From Oscillospiraceae bacterium CM (GTDB lineage Bacteria > Bacillota > Clostridia > Oscillospirales > Oscillospiraceae): 64,000 bases of DNA. Location: positions 1,176,501-1,240,500 of the forward strand of contig CP072107.1 of assembly GCA_022870705.1 (NCBI GenBank). Direction: 5' to 3'. Both the position numbers and the translations under genes were made by a program. Below, piece after piece: positions 52,313 through 57,185 of this stretch; within the stretch, counting starts at the first letter, position 1; each line of letters starts with the position of its first letter. The notes under the pieces were generated by a model. The model was not told where the DNA came from. It worked only from the letters and a program-made list of their open reading frames with translations, and did no database searches.

Positions 52313-52729
52313 TTATCTGTCGAAGCTTGGGTTGACGGCGTAAACGTTTTTCTGGTTCTGCCGCTCGGTGACGAGGCGGAGCGCCTCGCCAAACCGTTGG
52401 AAATGGACGATTTCGCGCTCCCGCAGAAACCGGATGGCGTTATTAACGTCCGGGTCGTCTGAGAGCCTTAGGATATTGTCATACGTTTTGCGCGCTTTCT
52501 GCTCGGCAGCCATATCCTCTGTAAGGTCGGCGATGGTGTCGCCGGATACCTGCATCGTCGCGGCTGTCCACGGTGTGCCGGAGGCAAATTGCGGATAGAC
52601 GCCCGCCGTGTGGTCGACGAAATAGCCTTCCATCCCAGCTGCTTTAACGTCTTCCACCTTCATGTTCCGCGTCAGCTGGTGGACGATAGTGCCGACCATC
52701 TCGAGGTGGCCCAGTTCCTCCGTACCTAT
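52313..52729 (-). CDS. cotJC: cotJC, 3' portion (spore coat manganese-catalase-like), separated by the element
   Basis: The last ~136 codons of CotJC, a di-manganese-catalase-fold spore coat protein. It begins at the recombination core with GTEELGHLEMVGTIV, whose Glu/His are metal ligands, and continues through ADLTEDMAAEQKARKTYDNIL and REREIVHFQRFGEAL. It has no credible start of its own; the open frame beyond the core (to 52750) is element sequence. Joined at TACCTAT to the 5' portion at 55836-56016 it gives a 198-codon protein close to the ~189 of B. subtilis CotJC. As it stands the gene cannot yield a complete product. Confidence 0.88.
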   Translation of the reverse strand: MGTEELGHLEMVGTIVHQLTRNMKVEDVKAAGMEGYFVDHTAGVYPQFASGTPWTAATMQVSGDTIADLTEDMAAEQKARKTYDNILRLSDDPDVNNAIRFLREREIVHFQRFGEALRLVTERQNQKNVYAVNPSFDR

Positions 52730-52742
52730 TTCGTTAACGCAA
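52723..52742. repeat. Left attachment site of the cotJC element
   Basis: Core TACCTAT (52723-52729). Outside it is cotJC coding sequence. Inside it lie GTTAAC (52733-52738) and the arm ACGCAA (52737-52742), which pairs with TTGCGT of the right end in the predicted circle. Confidence 0.75.
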
Positions 52743-52806
52743 TAACACAAATTTTTCTGAGACAGGCAAAGACACCTGCGCGCCCGAATATGATTTTTGG
52801 GGAGGG

Positions 52807-52971
52807 ATGGCGTTGAAAAGCTTAAAGATGATTGATGCGGAACAGCGCGCTGTAAGCGCCGGGTTCATCCGTATTTTTGAAAAGCAGGCCTTACTCGCGC
52901 TACGGCGGCGCTGTTTGCTATCGGAAGGGGCACTCTTTTGGTGCTTTGATCGACTGGAGGCAGACTTTTGA
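52807..52971 (+). CDS. Small protein coupled to the serine recombinase
   Basis: 54 codons from the ATG at 52807, or 52 from the TTG at 52813. GGGGAGGG sits directly before the ATG, so its spacing suits the TTG better. The product begins MALKSLKMIDAEQRAVSAG and is predicted helical with a basic RRRC cluster in the middle. It ends TGA inside the TTGA that starts the recombinase, a 4-base overlap implying translational coupling. No family recognised. Its size and place suggest an accessory or directionality factor for excision (inference). Confidence 0.6.
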   Translation: MALKSLKMIDAEQRAVSAGFIRIFEKQALLALRRRCLLSEGALFWCFDRLEADF

Positions 52972-54443
52972 CAACGCGCGTTGCCGCCTACTGCCGCGTG
53001 TCAACCGAGCTTTGTGATCAGCAAACCTCGTTTGAAAGCCAGAAAACGTTTTTTACCGACTATATTGCTGCCACACCCGGCTGGTCGCTTTATCAAATCT
53101 ACGCTGACGAAGGAATTTCCGGCACGTCGGCAGCCCCGCGCACCGGTTTTCTTGACATGCTTGGCGACGCGAAGCTTGGCCTTTTTGACCTCGTTGTCAC
53201 AAAAGAGATCAGCCGTTTTTCGCGAAATCTCTTGGACACCGTTCGCTACACGCGTGCTTTAAAGCGATGGGGCGTCGGTGTTTTATTTTTAAACGACGGT
53301 ATTTCGACGCTCGATCCGGATGCCGAACTGCGGCTGAATATCATGGCGTCTGTCGCGCAGGAGGAGAGCCGGAAAACGAGCGAACGCGTCAAATGGGGCC
53401 AGCGGCGACGCATGGAGCGCGGCGTTGTCTTCGGGCGCAGTCTCCTCGGCTATACGGCGGTAAACGGCAGCCTGACGGTCGAGCCTTGCGGAGCGGCTAT
53501 CGTCCGCCGGATTTTCAGCCTTTTTTTGGACGGGCGCTGCGGCGTCCGCCAGATTGCGCGCACGCTCACCGAGGACGGCATTTTGACACCATCCGGGAAA
53601 ACAACCTGGTCCGGCGGTGCTATTTATAAAATTCTGCGCAACGAAAAATATTGCGGCGACCTTGTCCAGCGGAAAACCATCACCGTTGATTATCTGTCGC
53701 ACCAAAAGATCAGAAATCCCGACTTTGAAGATTATGTCCGTCTGTTAAACCATCATGAGCCCATCATTCCGCGTGCGACATGGGCAGCCGCCCAAGAAGA
53801 GCTCAATCGTCGTAATACAGCACAAAACGCCGACACATCCCGCGCCGTCCGTTATCCGTTGTCCGGCAAAGTCCGTTGTGGTGTGTGCGGTAAAACGTAT
53901 CGCTGCCGGACGCGCCGCCGCCGCGACGGCAGCTTCTACCGCCTTTGGGTGCCGGATGGCTGCCGGTGTTGTGACGCTGTCCGCTCCCTGCGGGAGGAGG
54001 CTGTTGTCTCCTGCGTGCAGGCGATCGTCTCCGGCTTTGACAGCGCGGTGCTGACGCAAAACCTCTCAAATATCCTCAGGCACTTAAGCGACGTGGCAAG
54101 GCGCGCACAGCCCGCGCACACTGTCACAGCTTTGCGGGATAAGCAGATGAAGCTGACGGATGCGTATCTGTCCGGCGATGTTGATAAGGCTGTCTACAAT
54201 GTTTTAAAAGAGGCGTATCAGCGGGAGGAAAGCGCCTTATGTCATCAAGCTGGATCCGTTGAAACCATATCCGGCAGGGAAAACGAGACGCTCATAGCGG
54301 CGCTGTCAGCGCTTTGCGCCGGTATGCACGATGACGACGTATTTTATCTGAGCCTTGTTGAGTCGCTCACCGTCACAAACGGCGGCGTGACGATCCGCCT
54401 GTTCGGCCTTTCAGCGCCGTTTCAGGCGCAATTTGAGGATTAA
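52968..54443 (+). CDS. Large serine recombinase of the cotJC element
   Basis: 491 residues, TTG start at 52968 with CTGGAGG 6 bases upstream. Resolvase-type catalytic domain: YCRVSTE with nucleophile S12, DEGISGTS, KEISRFSRN and QEESRKTSERVKWG with catalytic Arg residues. The PF07508-type recombinase domain follows (GYTAVNG, ARTLTEDGILTPSGKTTWSG, ILRNEKYCGD). A zinc ribbon lies at about residues 302-334 (CGVCGK and CRCC), then a C-terminal helical/coiled-coil part. Full length with no lesion. It most likely excises the element that carries it. This architecture is the same as skin-element recombinases such as SpoIVCA. Confidence 0.93.
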   Translation: MTTRVAAYCRVSTELCDQQTSFESQKTFFTDYIAATPGWSLYQIYADEGISGTSAAPRTGFLDMLGDAKLGLFDLVVTKEISRFSRNLLDTVRYTRALKRWGVGVLFLNDGISTLDPDAELRLNIMASVAQEESRKTSERVKWGQRRRMERGVVFGRSLLGYTAVNGSLTVEPCGAAIVRRIFSLFLDGRCGVRQIARTLTEDGILTPSGKTTWSGGAIYKILRNEKYCGDLVQRKTITVDYLSHQKIRNPDFEDYVRLLNHHEPIIPRATWAAAQEELNRRNTAQNADTSRAVRYPLSGKVRCGVCGKTYRCRTRRRRDGSFYRLWVPDGCRCCDAVRSLREEAVVSCVQAIVSGFDSAVLTQNLSNILRHLSDVARRAQPAHTVTALRDKQMKLTDAYLSGDVDKAVYNVLKEAYQREESALCHQAGSVETISGRENETLIAALSALCAGMHDDDVFYLSLVESLTVTNGGVTIRLFGLSAPFQAQFED

Positions 54444-54462
54444 CTTTAGCCGCCGGATGTGA

Positions 54463-54468
54463 TATGAT
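54463..54468 (+). promoter_or_regulatory. Possible promoter of the phosphorylase gene
   Basis: TATGAT at 54463-54468, 17 bases after TTAACT (54440-54445). If real, the phosphorylase can be transcribed independently of the recombinase. Confidence 0.35.
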
Positions 54469-54498
54469 AAGGAAAATTCCGGAGAAGGGACGCGCGTT

Positions 54499-55797
54499 AT
54501 GCGGTTTTACGATATCATTCAAAAAAAACGTGATCGACAGGCGCTGACGGACGATGAGCTCCGCTATGCGGTTGACGGTTTTACGGTGGGCGACGTGCCG
54601 GATTATCAGATGGCGGCGTTTCTCATGGCCGTCTATTTCAGCGGGATGGACGCACGCGAGGTCACAACGCTGACGCTGTCCATGCAACAGTCTGGTGACA
54701 GCGTCGATTTGTCCCCGTTTGGCAGTTTGACGGCCGACAAGCACAGCACAGGCGGCGTCGGCGATAAAACAACGCTGATCGCGCTGCCGATTGTCGCCTC
54801 CCTCGGCGTCGTTGTCGCCAAAATGTCCGGCCGCGGGCTTGGACACACGGGCGGCACGGTGGACAAGCTTGAAGCGATCCCGGGCTTTCAGACAACGCTG
54901 ACGCGTGATCGGTTTATACAGCAAGTCAAGGAAATCGGCATCGCCGTCGTTGGCCAGTCGGGCACGCTTGCGCCAGCCGACAAAAAAATGTACGCCTTGC
55001 GCGACGTGACGGCAACGGTTGACAGCATTCCGCTCATCGCGTCGAGCGTCATGAGCAAAAAGCTCGCCTCCGGCACGCAAAACATCGTACTGGACGTGAA
55101 ATTCGGCAGCGGTGCTTTTATGAAAACCCCGGAAGACGCCGCCCGGCTCGCACAGACGATGGTGACGATCGGCAAAGCGGCAGGCCGCAACATGGCCGCC
55201 CTTGTGACGACAATGGACGTGCCGCTCGGGAGCGCCATCGGCAACGCGTTGGAGGTTTTAGAGGCTGTCCGTGTTTTGAAAGGGGAGGGCGGGGCGCTGC
55301 GCGACGTTTCCTGCGCCCTCGCCGCCGAGATGCTCTCCCTATGCCATGGCTGGCCGCACGCGCAAAGCGCCGCGGCGGTGGACGATGCCCTGCAAAGCGG
55401 CCGCGCCCTCGAGAAGTTTCGCCAGTGGATAGCCTATCAGGGCGGCGATACGGCCTTTATTGACGACCCCAAGGCACTTGGCGAAGCACCCGTCCAAGAC
55501 GTTTTCGTCGCCTCCCAAGGCGGCTATTTAACACACCTCAACGCCGAGCTGTTTGGCAAAGCGTCGTCCGCCCTCGGGGCCGGTCGGGAGAAGGCCGTAG
55601 AAGGTGTTGACCCGCTGGCCGGTATTGTGCTTAATAAATCGCTTGGAGATTTCTGCGCCCCCGGCGAGACGCTCGCCGTCTTGCACACAAGCGATAAAAG
55701 CCGCCTCGCTCCCGCCCGCGCCTATCTCAACACCGCCGTTTCATACGGCCCTGACAAGCCATCGCCAGCGCCTCTTATTCACAGCGTTTTACGGTAA
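54499..55797 (+). CDS. pdp: Pyrimidine-nucleoside phosphorylase (element cargo)
   Basis: 432 residues. Phosphorolysis of uridine, thymidine and deoxyuridine to base plus (deoxy)ribose 1-phosphate. N-terminal helical domain (ELRYAVDGFTVGDVPDYQMAAFLMA). The phosphate-binding and signature region follows: DKHSTGGVGDKTTL, MSGRGLGHTGGTVDKLEAIPG and SSVMSKKLASGTQNIVLDVK. The alpha/beta and C-terminal domains run to the usual length. GGAGAAGGG precedes the ATG. Intact, and ends 33 bases before the right core, so it lies wholly inside the element. In many Firmicutes this gene follows spoIIM-xerD with deoB and punA, so it may be a captured local gene. Confidence 0.95.
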   Translation: MRFYDIIQKKRDRQALTDDELRYAVDGFTVGDVPDYQMAAFLMAVYFSGMDAREVTTLTLSMQQSGDSVDLSPFGSLTADKHSTGGVGDKTTLIALPIVASLGVVVAKMSGRGLGHTGGTVDKLEAIPGFQTTLTRDRFIQQVKEIGIAVVGQSGTLAPADKKMYALRDVTATVDSIPLIASSVMSKKLASGTQNIVLDVKFGSGAFMKTPEDAARLAQTMVTIGKAAGRNMAALVTTMDVPLGSAIGNALEVLEAVRVLKGEGGALRDVSCALAAEMLSLCHGWPHAQSAAAVDDALQSGRALEKFRQWIAYQGGDTAFIDDPKALGEAPVQDVFVASQGGYLTHLNAELFGKASSALGAGREKAVEGVDPLAGIVLNKSLGDFCAPGETLAVLHTSDKSRLAPARAYLNTAVSYGPDKPSPAPLIHSVLR

Positions 55798-55815
55798 AGA
55801 ACACAAAAAAGTCTT

Positions 55816-55841
55816 TTGCGTCTACCATATACCTATATCGG
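55816..55841. repeat. Right attachment site of the cotJC element
   Basis: Core TACCTAT (55830-55836). The inside arm TTGCGT (55816-55821) pairs with ACGCAA of the left end in the circle. Outside it, cotJC continues. Confidence 0.75.
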
Positions 55842-56016
55842 TTAACAGCGCTTTGAGCTCCGGGTAAGGCATAGAGTAGCGCTGGCTGAGGTAGCGCAGG
55901 GAAGCGCCGAGTTCGCCGTCCGGCCCGCCGTACTGACTGATGATGAATTTTGCCAGGGCGGGATTGGGTGTTGAGATTTTGACGGGGTATTCGAGCCTTT
56001 TCTGATATTCAAACAT
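55822..56016 (-). CDS. cotJC: cotJC, 5' portion (spore coat manganese-catalase-like), truncated by the element
   Basis: First 62 genuine codons of CotJC from the ATG at 56016, including the N-terminal NPALAKFIISQYGGPDGE block and LGASLRYLSQRYSMPYPE, both characteristic. The frame runs through the core into element sequence and stops after two foreign codons (Ile-Trp) at 55822. The ATG lies 2 bases after the cotJA-cotJB stop, in the classical cotJABC order. A 64-residue truncated peptide is expected until the element leaves. Confidence 0.88.
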   Translation of the reverse strand: MFEYQKRLEYPVKISTPNPALAKFIISQYGGPDGELGASLRYLSQRYSMPYPELKALLTDIGIW

Positions 56017-56018
56017 CC

Positions 56019-57068
56019 TTATTTACCCGCCCCTCTTTCGGCGTATTCCCACGGCCAGGGGTTATTAAGCCATGTGAATTCATCGCCGGATGTAATGTCC
56101 ATAATTGTCTGAGGTCCGTACAGCTGGACGTATTTATCCATGCCCTCTTTCATTAGCTTGTTGAGCGTTTTCAGCATGTCAAGCGCATCCCTGTCATTTG
56201 AATGCGTGTCCAGATAAAGATTGAGCTCGTCGATGGCAAAACCAAGCGCCATCAGCTCGCCCAAAGGTGTTCCGGCGTATGGGTTTGTGTTGTTCGCGAT
56301 GTTCATGAACGGCAAGTCTAGGCCGGGGAAAAGCGTTCCGCGCGTTAACGCCTCATCATTTTGATATGTCGGCGGATTTTTCGATTGGAACGGGACATAT
56401 CCGACGGACAGAGGCGCGCATGGCGGCAGTTCGCCGTTTTTATACCCGCAGGGGGATGTATCTGTCATCGCACCGGAAACATTTTGTTTGCCGGTCATGT
56501 ACGGCGAAACGCCCATGTTCGGCTTTGCCGTCTGCTGCGGCATCATGCCCATGTTCATCGGGGAAACGCCGCTGTTCGGCTTATTCATCATTTCCGGCAT
56601 CATACCGCTGTTGGCGCTCGCCATCGGCGAAACGCCCATGTTCGGTTTTGCCGCCTGCTGCGGCATCATACCCATGTTCATCGGGGAAACGCCGCTGTTC
56701 GGCTTATTCATCATTTCCGGCATCATACCGCTGTTCGCGTTCGCCATCGGCGAAACGCCCATGTTCGGCTTTGCCGCCTGCTGCGGCATCATGCCCATGT
56801 TCATCGGGGACACGCCACTGTTCGGCTTGTTCATCATTTCCGGCATCAACCCGCTGTTGGCGCTGGCCATCGGCGAAACGCCCATGTTCTGCTTTGCGGA
56901 CATATATGGCATGGCGCCCATATTCGGGGCGTTCATGTTATTTGAAGCGCTACCACTGCCCATAACGCCGGCATTGCTGTTTGCCTGTGCACCGGACGGC
57001 ATTGTCTTTGCGCCAGCTGCATATCGCTGCCGCGCGGTACTGCTCGGTTGTACGTAATGATCCTCCAA
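56019..57068 (-). CDS. CotJA-CotJB fusion with Met/Asn-rich repeat domain
   Basis: 349 residues from the TTG at 57068, 7 bases after AAAGGAGG; upstream codons are not coding-like. Residues ~25-190 are low-complexity Met/Asn/Pro/Ser sequence with three 41-residue repeats (MGVSPMASANSG..., NKPNSGVSPMNMGMMPQQAAK) and a partial fourth. Residues ~205-265 match CotJA (YVPFQSKNPPTYQNDEALTRGTLFPGLDLPF pattern). Residues ~269-349 match CotJB (LMALGFAIDELNLYLDTH and NPWPWEYAERG). CotJA and CotJB are normally separate ~80-90-residue inner coat proteins. Mother-cell expression is expected from the sigma-E-like site upstream. Confidence 0.82.
   Translation of the reverse strand: MEDHYVQPSSTARQRYAAGAKTMPSGAQANSNAGVMGSGSASNNMNAPNMGAMPYMSAKQNMGVSPMASANSGLMPEMMNKPNSGVSPMNMGMMPQQAAKPNMGVSPMANANSGMMPEMMNKPNSGVSPMNMGMMPQQAAKPNMGVSPMASANSGMMPEMMNKPNSGVSPMNMGMMPQQTAKPNMGVSPYMTGKQNVSGAMTDTSPCGYKNGELPPCAPLSVGYVPFQSKNPPTYQNDEALTRGTLFPGLDLPFMNIANNTNPYAGTPLGELMALGFAIDELNLYLDTHSNDRDALDMLKTLNKLMKEGMDKYVQLYGPQTIMDITSGDEFTWLNNPWPWEYAERGAGK
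56502..56993. repeat. 123-bp tandem repeats in the coat gene
   Basis: Units start at 56502, 56625 and 56748 (exact 123-base period), with a diverged partial fourth from 56871. 123 is a multiple of 3, so copy-number change keeps the frame. The repeats leave long shadow frames open on the plus strand. Confidence 0.92.
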
Positions 57069-57111
57069 GTGTTTTCCTCCTTTTGTTCTTTGGGAAAGTG
57101 TTTCCCGAACC

Positions 57112-57119
57112 AGTATATG
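57112..57119 (-). promoter_or_regulatory. Sigma-E-like -10 upstream of the cotJ operon
   Basis: CATATACT on the minus strand, one mismatch from CATACA(A/C)T, 44 bases before the TTG start. A weak GAACACG lies at about the -35 distance. Confidence 0.45.
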
Positions 57120-57185
57120 ACAGGTCGTTTTTCCGTGTTCATCCTGCTTTCGCGGCACCGTGCCAGTCTCTTTGCCGAATCCTTT

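Follow-up and report, generated by a model that had tools for sequence, protein, structure and literature searches.

Split cotJC genes in Oscillospiraceae point to a common, apparently unreported cut-and-repair step in spore formation

Introduction

Is a spore coat gene that has been cut in two by a recombinase-carrying insertion a dead gene, or is it put together again when a spore is made? The cotJC locus of Oscillospiraceae bacterium CM (G000) raises this question. We analysed it in a window of 64,000 nt, i.e. the whole stretch of DNA under study, together with the five available congeners (G001-G005) and a wider set of Clostridia.

The cotJC locus of strain CM

The 5' half of cotJC begins at 56016 on the minus strand and matches its family up to codon 62, and the 3' half ends at 52313. 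Both halves match the Mn_catalase/CotJC domain PF05067, and a profile search of the whole genome, a single contig of 2,185,546 bp, gave no second PF05067 match. The locus has the following features:

56019..57158, minus strand: CotJA-CotJB fusion (PF11007 and PF12652), directly upstream of cotJC
55830..56016, minus strand: 5' half of cotJC, codons 1-62, core repeat included (PF05067 profile 1-63, E 4e-18)
55830-55836, minus strand: core repeat ATAGGTA of the 5' junction (attL-like)
52723..55829, strand not applicable: intervening element, 3107 bp, three genes
52723-52729, minus strand: core repeat ATAGGTA of the 3' junction (attR-like)
52313..52729, minus strand: 3' half of cotJC, core repeat to stop codon (PF05067 profile 62-199, E 6e-32), its own start not conserved

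The first-pass annotation had described a 3107-bp element splitting cotJC, with TACCTAT at each breakpoint, and the coordinates bear this out to the base: ATAGGTA (TACCTAT on the plus strand) occurs at both breakpoints, spaced exactly 3107 bp. Joining the halves at this repeat gives, again as had been claimed, a 198-aa CotJC (LLTDIG followed by TEELGHLEM) in frame with no base gained or lost, so that IGTEELGHLEM is restored. The break falls immediately before the conserved EELGHLE stretch. The annotation was right to place the split after codon 62; the range of 55836-56016 that it gave for these codons was not correct, since it covers only 60 of them and codon 62 ends at 55831. The limits given for the element include one core and stop one base short of the other, a convention that leaves the crossover point within the core unspecified.

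The CotJA-CotJB fusion and cotJC form one coat operon. The fusion has a long N-terminal repeat region (56488-57057, NSGVSPMNMGMMPQQAAKPNMGVSP...) unlike the usual CotJA.

Genes carried by the element

Three genes lie in the element on the plus strand, in this order:

52807..52971, plus strand: small protein, 54 aa, candidate recombination directionality factor (RDF) or other partner of the recombinase, conserved in position upstream of it
52968..54443, plus strand: large serine recombinase (LSR), 491 aa, with a TTG start overlapping the small gene (PF00239, PF07508; phrog_95 integrase)
54440..54468, plus strand: sigma-70-type promoter of the next gene, TTAACT-17-TATGAT (TG-extended)
54499..55797, plus strand: pyrimidine-nucleoside phosphorylase (PNP), 432 aa (TIGR02644, 525 bits)

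The full-length LSR between the halves had already been recognized in the first-pass annotation; the small gene and the phosphorylase gene went unmentioned there. The catalytic residues of the LSR are retained, Arg10, Ser12, Arg83 and Arg86 being invariant in the alignment. Its best NCBIfam match is XisF (NF041201) with 104.6 bits, far under the curated cut-off of 375. No phage structural, packaging or lysis gene is found among the three genes. Elsewhere in the same genome, at least five LSR-like matches cluster within ~21 kb (G000:C1:271000-292500; L085, L089-L092).

The PNP gene is intact, full-length and the sole true match in the genome, and the element's copy is likewise the single one in each of the six genus members. 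Outside the genus, PNPs are 45-55% identical and have no adjoining LSR, some of them being next to deoC-like and cdd-like genes (neighbours named by eye). PNP has a sigma-70-type promoter to itself, and comparable hexamers are present in the congeners, which suggests that PNP is expressed in growing cells; the scan count for this promoter is by itself not above chance. We infer that PNP gives the host a reason to retain the element.

Recurrence within the genus

In all five congeners an element of 3.0-3.7 kb, likewise made up of small gene, LSR and PNP, interrupts cotJC at the same codon as in strain CM, and hence the split is not a chance event. In a tree of 102 sequences, the LSRs of the genus group as a single clade (SH-aLRT support 100). 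They are ~49-60% identical in most pairs, and 83% over the first 355 residues between G002 and G004. The synonymous distances between these two species are alike for cotJC (0.44-0.80), LSR (0.86) and PNP (0.66). The single clade and the similar distances indicate an old, inherited element whose PNP-carrying form arose once.

The LSR frame of G002 (L033:3595-5100) contains stop codons in the C-terminal part, apparently via an inserted stretch at the coiled-coil position, and the coiled-coil segment is absent from the LSR of G004; the two enzymes may have lost either their function or the capacity to integrate. Intact cotJC-like genes in G003 and G005 were considered as the excised form and rejected, being paralogues of 35-39% identity. 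G001 has a second, larger element with a different LSR in the same cotJC, near codon 23-30 (L032:5004-7001; L050, G001:C100). It covers at least ~12 kb on its contig and leaves cotJC in three pieces, of which the first ~22 codons could not be located.

Recurrence in the family and beyond

With the PF05067 profile we searched 300 genomes sampled from the family, which is taken to be Oscillospiraceae since one of its members, G164, has a contig in common with Pseudoflavonifractor capillosus An386a (L146 and L200 being one sequence). It matched in 237 of them, and 61 genomes, at least a fifth of the sample, encode both halves of a split cotJC; 18 further genomes have one half only. The splits fall at three sites, codon ~62 (site A, 34), ~30 (site B, 20) and ~134 (site C, 11), with the core sequences TAGGTACAGA, AGTACGGTGGTC and CTCGCAGCAGAG, respectively. 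Some genomes are split twice: eleven show signs of two insertions, G001 not counted. Genomes with a split copy masked by an intact paralogue are missing from these counts, and the relatives include many draft or metagenome assemblies. Elements with both halves on the same contig range from 3.0 to 43 kb, and most such pairs rejoin to about 185-215 aa, a few having a short and uncertain core assigned by script (e.g. L204, L143 and L156). The first-pass annotation had proposed looking in other Clostridia for recombinases at the same codon, and they are there, in the five congeners and in many family genomes at codon ~62.

Of the LSRs in named Clostridia genomes, we inspected the 80 closest; a cotJC fragment lies nearby (within the stretch examined) in 74 cases, and these fragments nearly always begin or end at site A. 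The host families include Oscillospiraceae, Lachnospiraceae, Acutalibacteraceae, Clostridiaceae, Desulfotomaculaceae, Caldicoprobacteraceae and Defluviitaleaceae. Culturable commensals such as Pseudoflavonifractor capillosus An386a (L146) and Flavonifractor sp. An10 (L187) are among those with a split cotJC. The LSRs of sites B and C form separate deep clades in the tree, and those at or near site A in G052 (L201) and G169 (L209) are only distantly related to the main cotJC family, which argues that several recombinase lineages have converged on cotJC. In the core, glycine is encoded by GGT in 58 of 74 split genes vs 4 of 20 intact relatives (p = 3e-6), which would be the outcome if GGTA were required by the enzyme. 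Near-identical site-A LSRs and small proteins are found across Lachnospiraceae genera, e.g. Roseburia and Dorea (L176, L183-L185, L190, L191, L193, L194 and L197), so this LSR branch still moves between hosts.

Six predicted viral contigs of IMG/VR (L225, L226, L230, L233, L239 and L240) carry a cotJC fragment running from codon ~24-30 to ~62-69, as if lying between a site-B and a site-A element.

The small protein and the control region

The small proteins make up a family of ~60 aa with the pattern F..fQ.aiLl.L...g.L...Qy..c...L. Of the 80 named loci, 73 have a member immediately ahead of the LSR and in the same orientation (68 at E < 1e-3; five of the loci with the protein belonged to the training set), and so do nearly all cotJC site-A loci and the smallest elements. 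For LSRs on viral contigs it was clearly found only where a cotJC fragment co-occurs. Searches of Pfam, NCBIfam and PHROG gave no meaningful match and no known RDF. The structure model of the strain CM protein is a two-helix hairpin (pLDDT 83), for which a fold search returned no significant match; an LSR coiled-coil, 5uae_D, appeared at E 9.4 and is a lead only. The protein is similar in size and in its LSR partner to CD1234, the RDF of the Clostridium difficile skin element (72 aa, PMC5025042). We infer that the small protein may be the RDF of the LSR, its activity being part of the inference.

The small gene and the LSR gene are preceded by one putative control region:

52758..52793 (approximate), plus strand: putative sporulation promoter, with a SpoIIID-like box AGACAGGC and a -10-like element AATATGAT, GACA-to-AATA spacing 22 bp

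The 22-bp spacing is identical in all five congeners: throughout the genus, i.e. in six of six members, an (A/C)ATA element upstream of the small gene is preceded at exactly 22 bp by GACAGGCAAA (GACATGCAAG in G005). Among 56 dereplicated upstream regions, an unbiased de novo motif search returned GkACArrC with a log-likelihood of 75, shuffled sets reaching at most 24, and CATAnnnT at about -30. The search was done with the ribosome-binding site removed; with the site left in, it was the sole motif found. Box and ATA are 22 bp apart in ten loci and 10 bp apart in thirteen, a difference of about one helical turn, while no spacing occurred more than three times in shuffles. The GkACArrC box resembles a SpoIIID site, whose consensus we take to be WWRRACARNY; the resemblance is one of sequence alone. 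For C. difficile the SpoIIID consensus is given as KRTAACARK (PMC5025042). Strain CM codes for SpoIIID and has an uninterrupted sigK-like gene, and the -10-like element AATATGAT is an imperfect match to sigma-E or sigma-K.

We also considered GGACAGGCAAA as an arm of the attachment site and rejected it, because it lies at a variable distance from the core (36 or 44-46 bp) and at a fixed one from the -10-like element. In a search of the whole strain CM genome the promoter pattern had a single perfect match, the copy in the element itself, and sites with one or two mismatches were about as frequent as in the reversed control, so no regulon emerged. The same pattern had 68 matches in the viral contigs.

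Selection on the split gene and competing explanations

We calculated dN/dS for the two halves of cotJC in three species pairs sharing an element. The values are 0.011/0.44 and 0.016/0.80 for G002-G004, 0.007/0.57 and 0/0.44 for G073-G216, and 0.013/1.0 and 0/0.51 for G109-G232 (site C), where the 64-codon 3' piece has no replacement change at a dS of 0.51. The ratios are thus about 0-0.03, and the reading frames are kept open in nearly all splits. Judged from these rates, the interrupted cotJC is still under strong purifying selection. A fragment without a promoter or start cannot be selected as such, and hence at some point the cell must produce full-length CotJC. Excision, which was not observed, is the simplest route to it.

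Our preferred explanation, which we regard as likely on the sequence evidence, is that a small, vertically inherited skin-like element resides in cotJC and is excised in the mother cell to restore the gene. The proposal of a skin-like element with precise excision, made before any of these comparisons, gains support from the recurrent in-frame splits, the selection on both halves, the LSR/small-protein module and the conserved promoter. What is inferred is the excision event itself, when and in which cell it happens, what the small protein does and which regulators act, and no assembly examined has a rejoined copy of cotJC.

It is also possible, if rather unlikely, that mobile elements merely use conserved cotJC codons as attachment sites, with excision rare and unregulated and cotJC restored by chance. 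Conserved genes are common targets of LSRs (PMC10083194), some members of the main site-A family are still mobile in view of the near-identical LSRs in several Lachnospiraceae genera, and large elements of up to 43 kb exist. Such elements would hardly leave both halves with near-zero dN over long periods while in place, nor would they be expected to keep a promoter with a SpoIIID-like box at fixed spacing; and in the genus of strain CM the element is ancestral and has no transfer or phage genes.

An inactivating insertion, by which cotJC would be dispensable and its halves mere remnants, could draw on reports that loss of CotJC or a homologue causes little or no spore defect in the species tested (PMC11222575, PMC12122855). 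Decayed fragments in relatives would have spoken for it and against excision. Instead both halves are near dN = 0, and together with the lack of a conserved start in the 3' half this makes inactivation very improbable; we rejected it on dN/dS. Still less credible is a two-part protein, with each half translated on its own and the two polypeptides joining up to function together. An in-frame TTG, GTG or ATG does precede the core in some 3' halves, but only one of 35 site-A 3' halves combines such a start with a strong ribosome-binding site, and three combine an ATG with a moderate site; in the genus of strain CM, the promoter close to the 3' half points away from it, and the break directly precedes the conserved EELGHLE. 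Independent expression of the 3' half was therefore rejected for want of a conserved start. Mis-assembly, conceivable where the relatives are drafts or metagenomes, hardly needs to be entertained, as strain CM is one contig and the arrangement recurs in many independent assemblies, cultured isolates included.

Proposed course of excision

Under the preferred explanation, the element would stay in place in growing cells and in the forespore, where cotJC is presumably not needed, and would supply the cell's only PNP from its own housekeeping-type promoter. In the sporulating mother cell, a mother-cell sigma factor and SpoIIID might switch on the small-protein/LSR unit, and the small protein would turn the LSR towards excision. 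The LSR would then recombine the two ATAGGTA sites, giving a 3107-bp circle and an intact cotJC for the spore coat. The terminal mother cell would thus have a restored cotJC, and the spore chromosome would keep the element with its PNP.

Relation to known elements

Developmental excision that restores a gene is also known from the fdxN element (XisF) of heterocyst-forming cyanobacteria, which differs from the cotJC element in phylum, host gene, size and regulation; by the cut-off, the LSR studied here is not of the XisF family.

The closest parallel is the skin element of sigK (B. subtilis, spoIVCA; C. difficile skinCd, LSR CD1231 and RDF CD1234), which shares with the cotJC element an LSR inside a mother-cell sporulation gene, core repeats and precise repair. 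Sigma-E and SpoIIID control the recombinase gene spoIVCA in B. subtilis (PMC517825) and the RDF gene CD1234 in C. difficile (PMC5025042); the cotJC element has a SpoIIID-like box, with no expression data. Unlike skin, it interrupts a coat protein gene and not a regulator, sigK being uninterrupted in strain CM, it is only 3.1 kb with no phage genes, and its small protein, matching no known family, lies directly upstream of the LSR with one promoter before both. The gin element of gerE (B. cereus ATCC10987, PMC5595907) is likewise non-phage and is excised at sporulation time by an LSR with a small factor (GirC, GirX) at a 9-bp core. However, gin has 28.6 kb and three recombinases compared with 3.1 kb and one, and the host genes differ. 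SPbeta in spsM, vfbin in spoVFB and yin in yabG are also excisable elements interrupting sporulation genes (PMC4191935, PMC10747680). They are large prophages or prophage-like, each at one site in one or a few species, whereas cotJC is hit at three sites across the family and beyond.

Diverse LSRs converging on one conserved coding site were also described by Durrant et al. in 2022 (PMC10083194). The targets given in the accessible part of that paper are magnesium chelatase, prolyl isomerase and competence genes; cotJC is not named there, nor is a developmental promoter or partner protein described. A 2023 paper lists sigK, spsM, spoVFB and gerE as interrupted sporulation genes and adds yabG, and cotJC is absent (PMC10747680). 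The C. difficile R20291 prophage phi027 is reported to adjoin a cotJC-like gene directly, the gene being downstream of attR (PMC11222575, PMC12122855). The first-pass annotation knew of no description of cotJC as a host gene, and our search of the literature for cotJC with integrase, prophage or skin found no report of a split cotJC either; it covered open-access literature only, and an earlier description is not excluded.

Significance

Taken jointly, and with less assurance than for the element of strain CM alone, we favour the view that cotJC is a major unreported target of developmentally excised elements in Clostridia. It would be used by at least three unrelated LSR lineages at three sites, sometimes two at once, the commonest lineage having its own small-protein/LSR module under mother-cell control, and in the genus of strain CM it would hold a domesticated element with the cell's only PNP. 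Annotation pipelines likely label such split genes as fragments or pseudogenes.

The split loci provide a large natural series of LSR/partner-protein pairs with known attachment sites, and the strain CM element is a minimal 3-kb form bearing a metabolic gene of which the genome has no other copy. The reason for the accumulation of elements in a single short coat gene becomes a testable question. If the view is right, cotJC would join the short list of genes repaired by DNA excision (sigK, spsM, spoVFB, gerE and yabG), and would do so apparently very commonly, in gut and environmental Clostridia where gene-repairing excision has been little studied. The split cotJC thus points to a common and apparently unreported cut-and-repair step in spore formation.
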